Below are positions 5,401 through 38,139 of a stretch of DNA of 64,000 bases, piece by piece. Source of the DNA: Bryopsis sp. KO-2023. Its lineage: Eukaryota; Chlorophyta; Ulvophyceae; Bryopsidales; Bryopsidaceae. A model generated the notes under the pieces. It had not been told where the DNA came from and ran no database searches. It saw only the letters and a program-made list of their open reading frames with translations. The position numbers and the translations under genes are program-made. The DNA lies in contig BSYQ01000013.1 in NCBI GenBank assembly GCA_030272585.1, forward strand, positions 1,798,001 to 1,862,000. The letters are read 5' to 3'. The number at the start of each line of letters is the position of its first letter. Within the stretch, counting starts at the first letter, position 1.

Positions 5401-6453
5401 ATAATTAAAAAAAATAAAAAAAATCCTCCATCAACACCAAAAACACAAACCACACAAAAACATGGATTTAAATTTGACCCTCCAAAAAATATATTATTAT
5501 ATTATTTTTTATTTTATCCTCCATGCCTTCGATGATCTAAAAACAAACCTTGGGTGCAGGATGGCATGGATATTTCTTATATACCGATATTTGGTGAAGT
5601 GAATTCACACCTGGCCTCCAAACAGATACACTGTGTCTCCAATCAACGTCAAAGATGCACCGGACAAGCCGATGGGCTTTCCCCTGCAAAATTGCAGCAG
5701 TAATGTCAGCCATGGGCTACCAAGCTCAAAGGCTCCAGTGAAACATTTTCTCTGTTTATTTTTCTGAGTTTTTGAAGGAAAAAAAAAGTCCAGGGGAAGC
5801 ATAGGTTATGGTGTTTTTACCCAGGTTGGCTGGGCATCACGGGGGTCCATCGACATTGGCCAGATCCTGCATGACAGTCCATCAGGCAACATTTTTCAAG
5901 AAAATTACCATTGATTAAGCACTAGGAAAAATAATCCAAGTTGAAAAATTTACCCTGAAATCCTGTCTAAAGAAATTAAGTTCGGACAAAAGTGTTATGC
6001 AAGAAACGCGACGACCCAAGCTCGTCAAGGCCGGGCTGGTTCTACAGGTGACGGGGGAAACGCTTGGAATTAATATAGATGGGGTAAAACAGGCAGGAGC
6101 TTCCAGCTACAGAGGCCCGTTGAATGTCAACGGCGACGACTCTGCGAGATCAGATGCAAGAAACGGAAGGAAAAAAAACACTGTCGCGATATTCTTAGTT
6201 CTTTCGTGTATTTCCCGTTTGTGGAACAAAGATGCCAAGCTCTCACCGAAATCCAGCAGCCAGAGGTCGTCATGGCCTTGAGCCTCGTGATTCGCCCCTC
6301 CGAAAATCAAGGCCTTGTTTCCCTCTAGCTTTACGCAGGAGTGCCCTCCGCGACTCGCGGGGACATTCTCCTCGACCACCTGAAGATGCCCCACGAGTGG
6401 TAAAAGAAAGGTAACCAGTCTACGAGGGACTGCCCAGCTTTGGTTTCTGTCAT
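2426..6453 (-). CDS. Kelch-repeat beta-propeller protein
   Basis: Exons on the minus strand: 6453-6424 (tentative first exon), 6379-6247, 5866-5821, 5683-5611, 5127-5053, 4634-4572, 4264-4074, 3726-3608, 3317-3201, 2829-2714 and 2494-2426 (stop TAG). All junctions are in phase, giving about 343 residues. Successive Kelch blades end in the double-glycine motif (ALIFGG, VYLFGG, LLIFGG, LMYGG, VLIYGG, MMVFGG), with Trp and Asp residues at the expected spacing. The whole protein looks like one propeller with little outside it, as in Rab9-effector/KLHDC-type scaffolds; I cannot name the partner. The first intron as modelled is only 44 nt and the N-terminus is the weak point. The remaining ten exons are well supported by phase and repeat spacing. 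Confidence 0.85.
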
Positions 6454-7051: not shown

Positions 7052-9027
7052 TCACGACCCAACCAAGGTTTGATAAACGAACCTGCCTTCATCCACCACA
7101 CCACCCTGTTCAAAGGAAATAGGAACTGTAAACATCGGGCCAGCATACACAAACGTGTGGAATTCACCGTTCTCCCCGCATGGATCCACCCCTGCTTTTT
7201 CGCACTCCTCCACAAACTCAACATCGAATTCCCGCCCAAGAAACTCGACCCCACATTGCTCCGTGTCCACCACCACCACGATCGCCTTCAGCCCGCTCCG
7301 TATCATTTCCAAAGCCACCCGTCGAGTTTCGATTTCCCCTTTCGTGTAGAGAGGAAACGAGGCATGCAACCCCAAATCCATCTTTTCCAAGCTGCTTTTC
7401 CTCCATTCCACGATTTCCGTCACGAACAGGTCCCCATAGCACACCGACGTGATGTCGAACTGCTCCTTGGCTGATATGAGTTTCTGTTTGACCGCTTTTT
7501 CGTATACGGTGTTGGGTACGGTGTCCTCCATGTTTATTTCGAGAAGGGGCAGCCCTATGGACTGTGCTTGCTCCCTCAGCAGAGTCAAAGGGACGGATTT
7601 GTGGACTTTCACATGGTCTCCTGATGTGTTAGTCATCAGAGCCTTGATTCCCCCTTCAATTCACCACACATTGAGCCTGAGTATACTTGTCTGTCATGGA
7701 AACGATCAGATTTAAGATCGAAATAGCCTGAGTATACTTGTCTGTCATGGAAACGATCAGATTTAAGATCGAAATAGCCTGAGTGTAATTGTCTGTCATG
7801 GAAACTATCAGATTCAGGATTTTTATGCGTATATCTAGTTTTTAAATACATCACAAAGGGTGGTCCATCTATCGATTTTTCAACCCAACAGACTTGGTCC
7901 ATCCATCAAACAGACGATTCACTGGAATAATAATGGCTGGTAATTTCACCTTTCATTACGTAATACGCCCAACAGCTGTCCTTCCCTGAACTCCACGACA
8001 TCAGCATTCGCCGAGCAGGCCACGCTCCGCAGGTTCGACAAAATAGAGTTTTGTCGGAGTACAAGTCGTGACCGCAACCCACGCAAGGCTGCGTCCCAGT
8101 GAATTTGCTCTCCACCCGACCGCTGGGGAAGCACCTCAAAAACGCTTTGAAATAGGTGGCGTGCTCCTTGTCTCGAATGACGACTTTGGCCTGATTAGCG
8201 TCAGGGATGTCGACGTCTTTCGCTTCCCAGAATCCAGGTTTGGACAGCAGCGTCGACCCGCTTCCCACTTCGATCGGATCTTTACGACGCCAGGCCGCCA
8301 GCGACTCCGGAAACGCTTCCCTCAGGCACAGCTTTCCAGTTTGGTGAAGTTCGCGAGGGTAGCCCGGATACAGCTCGATTGGCCTTTCCCCGATACAGTC
8401 CGCTTTTCCCAGAGTTAGCCCGAAATCAATGAAGGATTTTTGCAGGTATGGCGAAACGACCCGAGCACCGAGTTTGGCGCCAACTTTAGGGGCCGAGAAA
8501 CTCATTCCATCGACCATTGCTTTCCTGCGAATTGCAAACTCCTCGTCCCCGTAGCCCCAAAAGAACGAATATCCACCCAAAAGCTCATCAGAGCCGTCCC
8601 CCGTCAAAAAACGTCGAATGCCCGTTTCTTCCACGACCGTTTTAATTGCAAGGGCAGGGATCAACGAATTCCTGAGCTCCATCCCGTCGAACGTCTCCAG
8701 GGTGGCAACGCACAGGTCCAACAGCTCATCGTTCGCGATCAGGCTTTCGCAGGTCGTCTCGATTATTCTGTGCTCGACGCCGAACGCTTTCGCGACCTCG
8801 GGGGCGTATTTCCTGTCCGTGGCATCCTCCGACGCGAAAACGGTCACAACCAAGTCTGGCAAAGGGTACCGCGATCCGTCCTCATCGTTGAGCAACTTTA
8901 TCGCCTCCACGACGGCGGCGGTGTCGACGCCCCCGGATAATATAACGCCGTACGCTCCATCCTCTTGGTCCAGCACATCTCTCGTCGCTTTGATCAATTC
9001 CTTCCGCACGCCGGCCGCCGACGCCAT
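7052..9027 (-). CDS. fusion: asparagine synthase-type amidoligase + zinc ribbon + bacterial-type DPH6/DUF71 ATP pyrophosphatase
   Basis: Exons 9027-7950 and 7653-7052 encode 559 residues. Residues 1-300 form an asparagine synthetase C-terminal (PP-loop) domain without the glutaminase half. The P-loop reads SGGVDT (31-36, Thr replacing the usual Ser) and the second signature is TGDGSDELLGGY (142-153). A CxxC-x11-CxxC zinc ribbon follows (Cys 315, 318, 330, 333). From residue 341 a second PP-loop domain begins with SSGKDS (346-351) and ends with GENGEFHT (519-526), the hallmark of the DUF71/ATP_bind_4 family that includes diphthine-ammonia ligase. The wording of this second domain resembles bacterial members more than eukaryotic DPH6. 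Both domain types adenylate a substrate and transfer ammonia or an amine, but the substrate here is unknown. One continuous frame crosses from domain 1 through the zinc ribbon into domain 2, so the fusion is real at the DNA level. The ATG at 9027 directly precedes the domain; the frame stays open upstream to 9405 but overlaps the divergent gene. Confidence 0.88.
7675..7820. repeat. 51-bp tandem repeat, three copies, inside an intron
   Basis: Three head-to-tail copies begin at about 7675, 7726 and 7777, an exact 51-bp period. The first two are nearly identical; the third has drifted. Each contains the segment CTTGTCTGTCATGGAAAC or a close variant. The array fills about half of the single intron (7949-7654) of the ligase fusion gene. 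Confidence 0.9.
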
Positions 9028-30029: not shown

Positions 30030-30145
30030 GCTTATCCCCGTCTGCTGTTCACAGTCTTAAGCACCCTCCCTCCCCCCTCACACCAGACAGTCCCCACCGC
30101 CGTTTGTTTTTGTTAGGAGGGAACAAGTTTCACTAAGCGAGCGTG

Positions 30146-31585
30146 ATGTTTCCGACTCGCCACCACTGTCAAGCTCTTCTCGGGCTTGCGCTTGGAGCCC
30201 TGATCGCAACGACGTTCAACGATGTTTTCGTCGCAGCAGGGGACCCAGGGAACTGCCAATGGATGGAAGAAGTGGACGTCGCGATCGTCGGCGCAGGAGT
30301 TGCTGGTTTGATGGCAGCATACAAACTGGAAGAAGCAGGGTACAGCGTTAAAGTACTGGAAGCACGGAACAGGATCTGTGGACGACTCGAGAACCAGCCC
30401 GTTGGCGACACTGGCTACGTTGTTGAAGGTGGAGGCCAGTGGGTTGGGCCGACACAAGATCGAGTTCTGGCTTTGATTGATACTTTGGGGCTGGAGACTT
30501 TCAAGACCCACTTGACAGGATCTGGCAGGGTGCGCACGGGAGATGCAGTGACGCCTTTCGACGTCGACATCAACCAGGAAGATCCCGAACGAGATGCGCT
30601 GAGCGCGCAGCTGGATGAACTCGCGGCGAAAGTACCGCTCGACAAGCCGTGGGAAGCACCGAACGCGGAGGAGCTCGACGCGATGACGTTCGGGGATTGG
30701 GTGAAGGAGAACGTCAACACTACTGGTGGGGAGATGCTCATCAATGGCCTCTTGAACTCGGCGCTTATCGAACCAGACGCGAGCAAAGTGTCGATGCTGT
30801 TCATGCTGTATTGGCTGCGCTCCTTGGGTGGTGCGAAGATAACGACGGCGTTCCACGGAGGTGCCCAGGACTCGCGGGTGGTTGGAGGTACTGGAGCCAT
30901 TTGCGACTCGCTTATGAAACGATTAGGTGACGAGACTGTTCTGCTCGACACCCCTGTGACGGACATTATCCGCAAAAGGAACGGTGCTGTGGTGGAGTCG
31001 GCAAAAGTTATCGTGAAAGCGAAGAGGGTGGTTTTGACGTGTCAGCCGCAGACGTGCGGAAAGATCGAGTTCTACCCAGGCCTGCCGGCTGAGAGAATAA
31101 AACTGCAAGATGCTCTGCAGAAGCAAAAGCCCATCCCCAGCTCCACCAAACTGCACTTCGTGTATGAGACTCCGTTTTGGCGCGATGATGGGTTGTCTGG
31201 CTTCTCGTTGAGCACCATCACAGGCCTCTGCGTCGACAACTCGCCACCGGATGGGAAGATCGGGGTGATCATGTGTTTTGGAAGCGCGGATTCGGAACTG
31301 GAGGAGAAAGACTACTTGGAGGAGTTCGCGGTGTTGTACGGACCGAAGGCGTGGGACCTCAAAAGCAGGATCGTGAAAGACTGGAGCAAGGATGCGGAGT
31401 GGACGGCGACGTGCGTTACCAGCGTTCCTCCTGGAGTTATGACTTCGTCGTGGAAGACGATCAGGGAGCCCATTGGTGTCTTGCATTTCGCGGGCGGAGA
31501 AACCAGCCAAGTTTGGATGGGTTACATTGACGGAGCAGTGCGATCTGCAGAGATAGTAGCTGAAGAAATCGCCAGTCTTCTTTGA
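30146..31585 (+). CDS. secreted-type flavin monoamine/polyamine oxidase, copy 1 (intronless)
   Basis: A single exon of 479 residues. After a signal-peptide-like hydrophobic start (LLGLALGALIATTF) comes the FAD dinucleotide fold VAIVGAGVAGLMAAYKLEEAGYSVKVLEAR. The second flavin motif GGGQWVGPTQDRVLAL is typical of monoamine-oxidase-like enzymes. Further on are a Lys in the context TKLHFVYETPFWRDDGL and the C-terminal FAD-contact segment HFAGGETSQVWMGYIDGAV. The family oxidises primary amines or polyamines to aldehydes, releasing hydrogen peroxide and ammonia; the substrate here is not predictable. The usual GGR after the first fold is CGR. ATG 30146 is used; the GTG one codon upstream is not needed. 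It lacks introns in an otherwise intron-dense region, and a close paralogue lies at 36712. Confidence 0.9.
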   Translation: MFPTRHHCQALLGLALGALIATTFNDVFVAAGDPGNCQWMEEVDVAIVGAGVAGLMAAYKLEEAGYSVKVLEARNRICGRLENQPVGDTGYVVEGGGQWVGPTQDRVLALIDTLGLETFKTHLTGSGRVRTGDAVTPFDVDINQEDPERDALSAQLDELAAKVPLDKPWEAPNAEELDAMTFGDWVKENVNTTGGEMLINGLLNSALIEPDASKVSMLFMLYWLRSLGGAKITTAFHGGAQDSRVVGGTGAICDSLMKRLGDETVLLDTPVTDIIRKRNGAVVESAKVIVKAKRVVLTCQPQTCGKIEFYPGLPAERIKLQDALQKQKPIPSSTKLHFVYETPFWRDDGLSGFSLSTITGLCVDNSPPDGKIGVIMCFGSADSELEEKDYLEEFAVLYGPKAWDLKSRIVKDWSKDAEWTATCVTSVPPGVMTSSWKTIREPIGVLHFAGGETSQVWMGYIDGAVRSAEIVAEEIASLL

Positions 31586-34803: not shown

Positions 34804-36711
34804 CTGAGAACAATCCACACAAAAAACACCTATCATGCCTTGGAAACGAAAAAAAAAAATAAAACGACAGATGCGTCGATTGGCGTCGCGGGATATCGTT
34901 CACATGTAGATTTTTTCCTTGCAAGAATTTGGAACTAGAGGGCGTGGATGCTATGAAAAACTTCGCAGAAAACGATCTCTTGAAGAATCTGTGTGGAAAG
35001 TTCACAGTGGCGGCGGCGCTTTGGCATTGGCACGCTCAGGTCTAGAAATGTTAGCTGGGAGGGAACTTGAAATCGTTGATAAGCTGAGAAATGTTCGAGG
35101 GTGCGTAAAGATCGCAAGCAACTGCACGGCGTTGGCGTGGTATTAAGATTGTCCCTTTCCACAAAGGAGCGGTCCTCGTCACTTGAGAAAGTGCCGAAAC
35201 CCAAGACTAGCAAATCACAGCCAGGCGATTCTCGGTGGCTCTTAAATCGAAAAACTCTTCAGTCCAAATGATGCACTTTCTCTTAGACCCATTGAAGGTT
35301 TTTGGTTTCGCGTTGGCCTTGTTCAGTAGAACTTGGCTTTTGTGGGGATAAGTACTGGGGAGTCTATATCTTTTGCCCTTCTATCGAACAACGCAGTGTT
35401 TTCTGAACATGGATCTGCTGAACGAAAAGAAACCGAGCCGACGCAACCAGTCCACGAATGTGCACCCCAGCACAGCACACCATTTGCCAACACTGGTTGA
35501 CGGTCAGAACATAGTCAACTCTGAAAACTCACTCTTGACATGTTTCATGTTTTTCCCCTCCCCGGGCACCCTCTGCAGAGGACTCGTGATCGTTTGAGGC
35601 TCCATTATCAAAACCACAGTAGATGCTAGCTGGAAAACGAGCGGTTTTGTTTCCCGAAGTAAACAGAGCTTCCTTCGTGATCAATTGTTTATATCCACGA
35701 AAAGAAGCTTGGCTCGATAAAATTTCTGGTGTGGAGTGAAAAATAGTGTCGGTTGTGGTTTTTGTCAAGCATGACCACAACTTGGGCGTCTCCGTGTGGG
35801 GCCCACATATGTACATACTTTTGGTTTTGTTTCAACGGAGATAGCACCTCACGGTCCGAAGAATAGCTTGCATTAAGCAAACATATTTGTGCAATGGAGG
35901 AGGATTCTCCAGCCATAAATTGTTTTTGCTTTCTTTTCCTTGAATAAGATTAGTTTGTACCCTGGAAGGAAATCAAGGTCGCTTGCCAAGTCCATGGAAC
36001 TTGAACCTGAGATAAACGTCGTTTCCATTTCGGGTTGCCTCTGCTGTGGAAAGCTTGCATGTCGCACTATCGTGGCTGCCACTGCTTAATGTTCGCCTCG
36101 AGCTTTTGCGGACCAAGCTCCAAATACCGCCACTGTGCATTGTTGAAAATGTTCCGAGATATTTTTCTCGATTACTGTCTGGACCCGCAACACGAATTCT
36201 TCTCGTCTCGCAAGCCCAGTTTTCGCTCTAGTTCAGCGCTTCAAGGATATCAACTTCTGCGATATCGCCGACTTTGGTTTCGAAGGTTAATAATTTTACT
36301 GCGCACGCGCGTTGGCGCAGTCTTGCGGGCTCAGAGTTTTTCAGAGTTTTGTTTTCGGAAAGAAACTAGGTTCCGAAATGGTCAAGGGAACCAGCAAGCA
36401 TATTCATCTGGCAATGATGGACTCAAGTTTAAGTTAAGGTGCTGAAGTTATTGGGCTGGGCGCACAGACACCACTCGTCGCTGGTGATTTCGAGTACCCC
36501 ACCACTGGAAGCCGTCTGTTACGTCTCCCCCAACCCAACACCGTCCACCACACCACTGGAGATCCACGTGGACAGAATTACATGAAATCATGTGACGCTC
36601 AGTCAGGATGAGGATGAGGCCAGGGAGGGGGGGGGAATCCCCACTGAGGATGCTATCAAGAAGTACAAGAATTATCGTCTCTGTTCAGTTTTGCGAGAAG
36701 GGGAAAACGCG
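34804..36711. other. region upstream of the LRR gene and the second amine oxidase
   Basis: This should hold the missing 5' exon(s) of the LRRC72-like gene and the promoter of the second amine oxidase. Minus-strand frames at 34935-35213 and 35873-36082 could contain 5' exons, but neither can be joined confidently. Nothing else is recognised. Confidence 0.35.
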
Positions 36712-38139
36712 ATGTTTGTGGCGCGTCATAAGCTTCAAGCTTTGGGAGTGGTGCTTGGGGTGCTAGTCGCCACGTGCGGCGGTGTTTTTGTCGCAGCGCA
36801 AGACTCCACGAACAAGAACAGCAGGGTAGAAAAAGTAGACGTCGCCATTGTAGGTGCGGGAGTTTCTGGATTGACTGCAGCGTACAAACTGGAAGAAGCA
36901 GGATACAGTGTGAAAGTACTAGAGGCACGCGATAGAATCTGTGGACGAATCGAGAACCAGCCCGTTGGCGACACCGGCTACCTCGTTGAAGGTGGAGGGC
37001 AGTGGGTTGGGCCAACACAGGACCGAGTTCTAGCTTTGATTGATACTTTGGGGCTCGAGACTTTCAAGACGCACGTGACAGGATCTGGCAGAATACGCCT
37101 GGGGGATTTTGTGACTTCTTTCGAGGATACTGACGACCCCGAAGAAGATGCGTTGGCGAAGGAACTGGACAAACTCGCGGCGAAAATACCTCTCGACAAG
37201 CCGTGGGAAGCATCGAACGCCAAGGAGCTCGATGCGACGACGGTTGAAGAATGGGTGAATGAGAACGTCAAAACGGCTGGCGGAGCCCAACTCATTAGTG
37301 ACCTCTTGACGACTTCTCTTTCGGAACCAGACGGAAGCAAAGTGTCGCTGTTGTTCATGCTGTATTGGCTTCGATCAGTGGGTGGCGCGAAGATCGCGGC
37401 GGCGTTCGAGGGAGGTGCCCAAGACTCGCGCGTGGTCGAGGGCACCGGTGCGATCTGCGACGCACTCGCGGAACGATTGAGCAAAGGAACTGTCGCTCTT
37501 GAGAGTCCTGTGACGGACATCATTCGGAGGGGAAAGAAAGGCGCCGTGATAAAGTCTGCAAAAGTGACCGTGGAGGCGAAGAGGGTGGTATTGACGTGTC
37601 AGCCGCAGAAGTGTGGAGAGATTCGGTTCAAGCCCAAGCTGCCGAGAGACAGACGGAAACTACAAAAGGCTCTGGAAAAGCAGAAGCCGAAACCTGATTC
37701 CGTCAAGCTGCAGTTCGTGTACAAGAAACCCTTTTGGCGAGACGACGGGTTGTCTGGACTTTCTGTCGGCGCTGTCGGCGTGTGCGTGGATAACTCACCT
37801 GCGGATGGGAAAATCGGGGTGATCATGTGCTTTGGAAACGCCGATTCGGAGCTGGAGGAGGAAGACTACTTGGAGGAGTTTGAGGAGATGTACGGACCGA
37901 AGGCGAGGGACCTCAAAAGCAGGATCGTGAAAGACTGGAGCAAGGATGGAGAATGGACGGCGACGTGCGTTACCAGTGTTCCCCCTGGAGTTATGACTTC
38001 GTCGTGGAAGACGATCAGGGAGCCCATTGATATCTTGCATTTCGCCGGCGCAGAAACCAGCCAAGTGTGGATGGGTTATATTGACGGGGCAGTGCGATCT
38101 GCAGAGAGAGTGGCTGAAGAAATTGCTGGTCTTCTTTGA
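36712..38139 (+). CDS. secreted-type flavin monoamine/polyamine oxidase, copy 2 (intronless)
   Basis: A single exon of 475 residues, a close paralogue of 30146-31585 in the same orientation. A signal-peptide-like start (LGVVLGVLVATCGGVFVAA) precedes VAIVGAGVSGLTAAYKLEEA, GGGQWVGPTQDRV, KLQFVYKKPFWRDDGL and HFAGAETSQVWMGYIDGAV. Long stretches are identical to copy 1, especially the C-terminal third. The region around residues 140-240 and the basic segment before the Lys motif differ most. The frame stays open for 40 codons upstream of the ATG at 36712 but has no other ATG, so 36712 is the likely start. Like copy 1 it has no intron, and it keeps CGR in place of GGR. Tandem duplication followed by divergence is the simplest reading. 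Confidence 0.9.
   Translation: MFVARHKLQALGVVLGVLVATCGGVFVAAQDSTNKNSRVEKVDVAIVGAGVSGLTAAYKLEEAGYSVKVLEARDRICGRIENQPVGDTGYLVEGGGQWVGPTQDRVLALIDTLGLETFKTHVTGSGRIRLGDFVTSFEDTDDPEEDALAKELDKLAAKIPLDKPWEASNAKELDATTVEEWVNENVKTAGGAQLISDLLTTSLSEPDGSKVSLLFMLYWLRSVGGAKIAAAFEGGAQDSRVVEGTGAICDALAERLSKGTVALESPVTDIIRRGKKGAVIKSAKVTVEAKRVVLTCQPQKCGEIRFKPKLPRDRRKLQKALEKQKPKPDSVKLQFVYKKPFWRDDGLSGLSVGAVGVCVDNSPADGKIGVIMCFGNADSELEEEDYLEEFEEMYGPKARDLKSRIVKDWSKDGEWTATCVTSVPPGVMTSSWKTIREPIDILHFAGAETSQVWMGYIDGAVRSAERVAEEIAGLL

Follow-up and report, generated by a model that had tools for sequence, protein, structure and literature searches.

In the DUF71/COG2102 family, short motifs set Dph6, with EGGE/D-x-E, apart from the DUF71-B12 subgroup, with ENGEF/YH, as described in the sections of PMC3541065 drawn on here. 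According to the same sections, 75 of 102 DUF71-B12 genes adjoin B12 transporter genes, 18 of 102 adjoin cbiB, and DUF71-B12 and CbiZ are strictly anticorrelated in bacteria. A B12-salvage role was predicted for the subgroup in 2012 and stands in those sections as a prediction only (PMC3541065); a search of PMC found no experimental test of it. GAT-II/AsnB-DUF71 fusions from a few archaea (Methanohalophilus, Methanosalsum, and Nanosalinarum) were reported in 2012, again in the parts of PMC3541065 used. Here, we describe a gene of the green alga Bryopsis sp. KO-2023 that joins an asparagine synthase (AsnS)-like domain to a DUF71 domain through a Cys ribbon.

A gene for two PP-loop domains

The gene lies on the minus strand of the window, the 64,000-nucleotide stretch of DNA that was analyzed, in a 3.1-Mb contig (C13) of a 91-Mb assembly with 28 contigs. 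Exon 1 (7950..9027) is an open frame encoding residues 1 to 359 and base 1 of codon 360. It contains the AsnS-like domain, the ribbon, and the start of the DUF71 domain, and it continues past the ribbon as far as the P-loop of DUF71 without a stop. A predicted 296-bp GT-AG intron in phase 1 (7654..7949) is followed by exon 2 (7052..7653), which supplies the remainder of codon 360 through residue 559 and the stop codon. Splicing in silico, by joining 9027..7950 to 7653..7052, yielded exactly 559 amino acids. The splice sites (AAAG/GTGAAA and TTGAAG/GGGGAA) are predictions that rest on frame, phase, and family alignment; the intron sits within the DUF71 domain in a consistent phase. The position of the start codon, 30 residues ahead of SGGVDT, roughly agrees with that of archaeal relatives.

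The AsnS-like PP-loop domain (8128..9027, minus strand; approximately residues 1 to 300) was delimited by Pfam, family alignments, and an AlphaFold2 model, with its SGGVDT motif at 8920-8937. The CxxC-x11-CxxC ribbon, a putative metal-binding element, occupies 8029..8085 (residues 315 to 333). On the same strand, the first part of the DUF71 domain runs from residue 343 (7950..8001; Pfam), with SSGKDS at 7975-7992, and its second part extends up to residue 539 (7115..7653; Pfam, signature, and tree), with the DUF71-B12 signature ENGEFH at 7157-7174.

Pfam assigned Asn_synthase to residues 7 to 156 (E = 1.5e-17) and Diphthami_syn_2 to residues 343 to 539 (E = 1.7e-24), both above the curated cut-offs, and detected no glutaminase domain in the 559-residue product. 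No NCBIfam family reached its cut-off for the fusion protein; TIGR03679 scored 65 bits, its cut-off being 197. Six PDB entries matched by sequence: asparagine synthetases in the first part, and the archaeal proteins 2d13 (PH1257) and 3rjz in the second. The AlphaFold2 model of exon 1 (mean pLDDT 87.4, pTM 0.87) had its best Foldseek matches among asparagine and beta-lactam synthetases, which supports the AsnS fold and says nothing about the substrate.

The first-pass annotation had proposed two PP-loop domains in one polypeptide, a ribbon between them, and no glutaminase half. The Pfam matches, the alignments, and the spliced 559-residue product agree with the first of these claims, the invariance of C315, C318, C330, and C333 in a 53-row alignment with the second, and the absence of a Pfam match, with 30 residues before SGGVDT, with the third. 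At the level of sequence, the architecture is real.

Three further features of the window were recorded. A 51-bp unit is repeated in 2.8 tandem copies (96% matches) at 7674-7814, within the intron. A Kelch-type exon lies directly downstream of the fusion gene (6107-6394, minus strand). Two similar long open frames on the plus strand, at 30143-31585 and 36592-38139, both match Amino_oxidase (Pfam, E = 2e-50 and 3e-51) and are probable paralogous flavin amine oxidases.

Family membership of the two halves

Residues 1 to 339 matched 73 of 389 Thermoplasmatota genomes at an E value of ≤1e-3. The five strong matches (E ≤ 1e-30) spanned nearly the full length, ribbon included. Among the weaker ones, L100 to L102 were set aside as longer, ordinary-looking AsnB-type proteins. 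A profile built from eight AsnS-ribbon proteins (A3) matched 219 of 398 Thermoproteota genomes at an E value of ≤1e-20, with weaker matches covering only part of it, and a further search of 300 genomes centered on G006 drew largely the same genomes. In the Thermoplasmata order to which G265 belongs, a near-complete AsnS-ribbon gene was present in 13 of 106 genomes and a partial one in 2 more. The four ribbon cysteines and the PP-loop residues G33 and D35 were invariant in the 53-row alignment (A6), and the fusion protein displays the traits of the family in both alignments (A3 and A6): SGGxD(T/S), TGDxxDE, a four-Cys ribbon, and no glutaminase. Judged by these shared features, the first half is a member of an archaeal glutaminase-less family ending in the same ribbon. 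In the tree, the AsnS half was sister to the Thermoplasmata members (100/98, and 100/99 without the longest other rows), on a long branch of its own.

This placement runs against the earlier view of the first half as an asparagine synthetase missing its glutaminase, as the archaeal family is naturally without one. Loss of the glutaminase from the asparagine synthetase of the host was likewise ruled out, because the archaeal family also has none and a distinct Asn_synthase match, spread over several exons, lies on host contig C15.

Compared with Escherichia coli AsnB, D238, D351, and K449 were kept in 17 of 17 family rows; E348 was replaced by D in all 17, and none had D at position 384. The fusion protein itself keeps the PP-loop SGGxD, K449, and D351, and two of the three acids of its aspartate pocket are changed (E348 to D and D384 to A). 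In human ASNS, the amino group of an inhibitor sits in a pocket made up of E364, D367, and D400, and the E364A, E364Q, and D367A variants are inactive, as stated in the part of PMC6748925 consulted; in the mapping made in this analysis, the three residues equal E. coli E348, D351, and D384. Since E348 is D and D384 is lost in the family rows, aspartate is probably not the substrate of the AsnS-ribbon half.

The second half carries GENGEFHT; the ENGE[FY]H motif is present and EGGE/D-x-E is absent. In a 97-row tree, it fell within an 84-row clade of bacterial-type sequences (100/99), away from the host DPH6. Its exact place within that clade lacks resolution, and its branch is long. Constraining it with the Thermoplasmata rows was not rejected (p-AU 0.50; 0.47 and 0.20 in further tests), a result that does not show membership. 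The top identity in that row set was 42%, to a gammaproteobacterial row. By signature and tree, the second half is a DUF71-B12 member with a predicted corrinoid activity, and its earlier assignment to the bacterial DUF71 branch rather than to Dph6 holds.

The host genome contains two further DUF71 genes. L001 (contig C3) is the host DPH6, with Ribonuc_L-PSP (RidA-like) stretches, and is the obvious diphthamide enzyme of the host; these stretches, like the intron of the fusion gene, mark the genome as eukaryotic. The other, at 1258-2247 of L002 (contig C11), formed a pair in the tree with a protein of Poribacteria (97/89). Because the host has its own DPH6, the L002 gene, and a separate Asn_synthase, the fusion is not the sole candidate for either textbook function. 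Beside the host DPH6, at L001 191-1207, we noticed by eye a frame resembling triosephosphate isomerase with a long N-terminal leader.

Gene pairs, cobamide neighbors, and host B12 context

An AsnS-ribbon gene followed directly by a DUF71 gene on the same strand was found at 7 of 67 loci (G654, G757, G574, G425, G659, G001, and G804), 4 of the 67 having less than 700 bp of downstream sequence. Coordinates added G803 and G805, giving nine archaeal genomes with the order seen in the fusion. In the order of G265, the pair was adjacent in 4 of the 13 genomes with a near-complete AsnS-ribbon gene. In G804 both genes share one frame, with a single TGA right after the ribbon, approximately 17 residues ahead of the DUF71 P-loop strand; minus this codon and with a shortened linker, the G804 sequence would match the eukaryotic architecture. 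The partner DUF71s placed in the tree fell in three different subtypes, so that the pairing probably arose or was kept more than once. The partners in L177 and L179 had been considered canonical Dph6, an assignment that was dropped: they carry GENGE[FY]H and form a separate, very divergent branch.

In a contig scan, L011 alone among the best 80 loci covered both halves, the other 79 matching from residue 306 on. When the first half was sought in these 80 loci, L011 and one weak match (L056, E = 4e-5) were obtained. L011 does not qualify as a genuine fusion: its DUF71 and AsnS genes differ in frame, and DUF71 could begin at GTG 5860, which overlaps the AsnS stop, or at CTG 5905. Viral contigs gave no match with the single sequence or with a 7-row alignment. 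Both halves belong, by their sequence relationships, to prokaryotic families, and the fusion would have been acquired horizontally; the transfer, its direction, and its date are what we infer.

Relatives of the pair adjoin cobamide genes in several archaeal lineages. Seven AsnS loci were read from the order of G265. A BtuF-like gene lies next door at five of them (L011, L125, L126, L127, and L221) and CobB close by at four (L125, L126, L127, and L223); six of the seven thus have one or both, and L222, with short flanks, has neither. The four CobB proteins scored 375 to 408 bits, above the NCBIfam cut-off of 254. The BtuF-like proteins scanned were Peripla_BP_2 in Pfam, the two tried with NCBIfam falling below the BtuF cut-off, and the BtuC-like and CobY-like proteins were also below their NCBIfam cut-offs. 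At L128 (G017, same phylum), none of eight cobamide-related query genes matched by tblastn. L129 has a Peripla_BP_2 gene overlapping the end of AsnS, and in L130 consecutive genes for an ABC ATPase, DUF71, CobS, and a CobY-like protein precede AsnS by approximately 3.4 kb.

In G654, G736, and G623, a CobY-like nucleotidyltransferase is fused to AsnS-ribbon beside CobS (L177 5971-7554, L193 6056-7642, and L194 3152-4738; CobY profile below cut-off). The gene order in L177 is CobS, CobY-like::AsnS-ribbon, and DUF71; in L193 and L194, CobS (a partial match in L194) lies beside the fusion. Searching PMC, we found no paper joining asparagine synthase with CobY and cobinamide.

Pfam annotation of 124 neighbor proteins from 23 loci gave 14 CN_hydrolase, 12 Peptidase_M48, 7 CbiZ, 7 MoCF_biosynth, 3 CobS, and 2 DUF71, counts that derive from the 25 families listed of 94 in all and from many loci of closely related genomes. 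CbiZ is near seven loci, and the two of seven CbiZ-cluster members that were rescanned were both CbiZ. CN_hydrolase is found near AsnS-ribbon in 14 of the 23 loci (L128 to L130 and L176 to L195) and might either supply ammonia or act as an amidase on the substrate that AsnS-ribbon uses.

Twenty more distant loci (L196 to L215) had no cobamide family among the 84 of 117 listed neighbors scanned with Pfam (14 loci), one of the 84 being a DUF71 (L215), and none of the 20 matched the eight cobamide-related queries by tblastn. These AsnS-ribbon genes adjoin Alba, Rpb6, UbiA, and aldo-keto reductase genes. Their role may differ, and because of these 20 loci corrinoid specificity may not extend to the entire family.

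Of 76 genomes compared, 56 have AsnS-ribbon and 20 do not. CobS was detected in 41 of the former and 2 of the latter (Fisher P = 9e-7), and CbiB in 37 and 2, respectively (P = 2e-5), tests that ignore the relatedness of the genomes and the incompleteness of some. By coordinates, read by eye, 10 of the 56 (G002, G654, G624, G425, G659, G736, G623, G634, G568, and G397) have an AsnS-ribbon gene no more than approximately 5 kb away from CobS or CbiB. CobS and CbiB had no match in G001, G363, G265, and G383, the nearest archaea tested, nor in G017 and G006.

In the host, the METH activation domain was found as three pieces on contig C10, one of which contains an internal TAG. CobS and CobT had no match in the host genome, where exon-wise searching can miss split genes. 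In the algal genomes analyzed in PMC4850488, neither cbiZ nor cbiB was found, as far as the sections consulted report. A loop-building role makes little sense because CobS was detected neither in the host (nor was CobT) nor in the nearest archaea (nor was CbiB).

Candidate functions and known systems

We consider a fused archaeal-type gene pair for corrinoid salvage the best-supported reading, with a probability of roughly 55%; the corrinoid substrate, the chemistry, the cooperation of the two sites, the horizontal acquisition, and the role in the host are what we infer. The first domain would be an AMP-forming amide ligase that has no glutaminase and ends in a putative zinc ribbon, and the second a DUF71-B12 PP-loop enzyme, both sites most likely working on imported B12-type corrinoids. 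A carboxylate would be activated by adenylation, and reaction with free ammonia or an amine would then yield the amide. The protein would thus probably process scavenged B12-type molecules rather than make asparagine or diphthamide.

Corrinoid salvage is favored because the DUF71-B12 signature and tree place of the second half come with a published B12 link (sections of PMC3541065 used here); because the AsnS-ribbon family is shared with archaea and the AsnS half is sister to Thermoplasmata; because the order of the pair is kept in nine archaeal genomes, with a shared frame in G804; and because of the BtuF-like, CobB, CobS, and CbiZ neighbors, the CobY-like fusions, and the co-occurrence with CobS. 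The host has METH, and the changed pocket makes aspartate unlikely. The case is weakened by the distant loci, L128, and L222, which are without such neighbors, by BtuF-, BtuC-, and CobY-like scores below cut-offs, and by neighbor evidence that comes from archaea and not from the eukaryotic gene. The RNA or protein substrate suggested in the first-pass annotation found no support, the neighbors of the archaeal relatives pointing to corrinoids.

CobB acts on side chains a and c of corrinoids. A tentative extension of corrinoid salvage, which we regard as rather unlikely in this specific form, is a repair ligase: on corrinoids that are damaged or incomplete, its two PP-loop sites would turn carboxylated side chains back into amides, letting a eukaryote unable to build the nucleotide loop use these corrinoids for METH. 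It is based on side-chain action on imported corrinoids making sense without loop-building genes. The gene would have arisen from two adjacent genes of a Thermoplasmata-type set (BtuF-like, CobB, AsnS-ribbon, and DUF71-B12) that passed to a eukaryote, by loss of the intervening stop.

Replacement of CbiZ by DUF71-B12 was proposed in 2012 (PMC3541065, in the sections used). Extended to the fusion, pseudo-B12 would be opened by the DUF71 half and remodeled, the AsnS-like domain re-forming the f-side-chain amide as CbiB does. The anticorrelation of CbiZ and DUF71-B12 in bacteria (same sections of PMC3541065) is in line with this, as are the AsnS-ribbon genes fused to CobY-like or beside CobS in G654, G736, G623, G425, and G659, four of which (not G654) have CobS and no detected CbiB. 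Yet an opened corrinoid would not be rebuildable by known routes, with CobS and CobT undetected in the host and CobS and CbiB undetected in G001, G363, G265, and G383, and CbiB is kept in 37 of 56 AsnS-ribbon genomes; we regard remodeling as doubtful. Similarly improbable is a two-site ligase for a non-corrinoid substrate, in which one site would feed ammonia or an adenylate to the other by putative channeling. Both halves are of the PP-loop type that carries out ATP-dependent amide chemistry, the CN_hydrolase near 14 of 23 archaeal loci might supply ammonia, and distant family members are without B12 neighbors, but in closer relatives both halves have B12 links.

A second diphthamide enzyme, in which DUF71 would amidate diphthine and the AsnS-like domain help supply ammonia, would suit the Pfam name Diphthami_syn_2 and the interpretation given to the published archaeal AsnB-DUF71 fusions (PMC3541065, in the sections used), but is very unlikely given ENGEFH in place of EGGE-x-E, the TIGR03679 score of 65 against 197, and a tree place away from the RidA-like-bearing DPH6 of the host. 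That the locus is two genes or a misjoined model is just as improbable: the genes are separate in archaea and the fusion is known here from DNA rather than from a transcript, but the exon 1 frame stays open across the ribbon and on into the P-loop of DUF71, the phase-consistent intron lies inside the DUF71 domain, and the contig is 3.1 Mb long.

Should the repair reading prove true, cofactor repair would gain an enzyme of a new kind, and DUF71-B12 a function. A partner gene that recurrently adjoins DUF71-B12, and that in a eukaryote has merged with it, narrows the chemistry to paired AMP-forming amide ligation. The fusion offers a single protein to purify and assay, and it may add a route of corrinoid handling in B12-using eukaryotes.

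Among known systems, asparagine synthetase B/ASNS shares the fold of the first half (Foldseek E = 7e-14 for human ASNS and 1e-12 for 1ct9) and the kept residues D238, D351, and K449; here there is no glutaminase, two pocket acids are changed, and identity in the structural matches is ≤24%. Beta-lactam and carbapenam synthetases are AsnS-fold ligases with products other than asparagine. They also match in fold (Foldseek E from 5e-10), but at 16 to 20% identity, with different neighbors and no ribbon in the match titles. Dph6, the diphthine-ammonia ligase, has the DUF71 fold and PP-loop in common with the second half and differs in signature and tree place. The DUF71-B12 subgroup of DUF71/COG2102 shares the PP-loop, ENGE[FY]H, and the tree clade (PMC3541065, sections used); here the domain is fused behind an AsnS-like domain and ribbon, in a eukaryote, and the function of the subgroup is itself predicted. 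The GAT-II/AsnB-DUF71 fusions of 2012, compared by their description in the parts of PMC3541065 used, likewise have an Asn-synthase PP-loop domain ahead of DUF71. The architecture, taken at first for an undescribed one, is in part known, as these glutaminase-bearing fusions precede it; what sets the Bryopsis protein apart is that it has no glutaminase and that a ribbon links its two domains.
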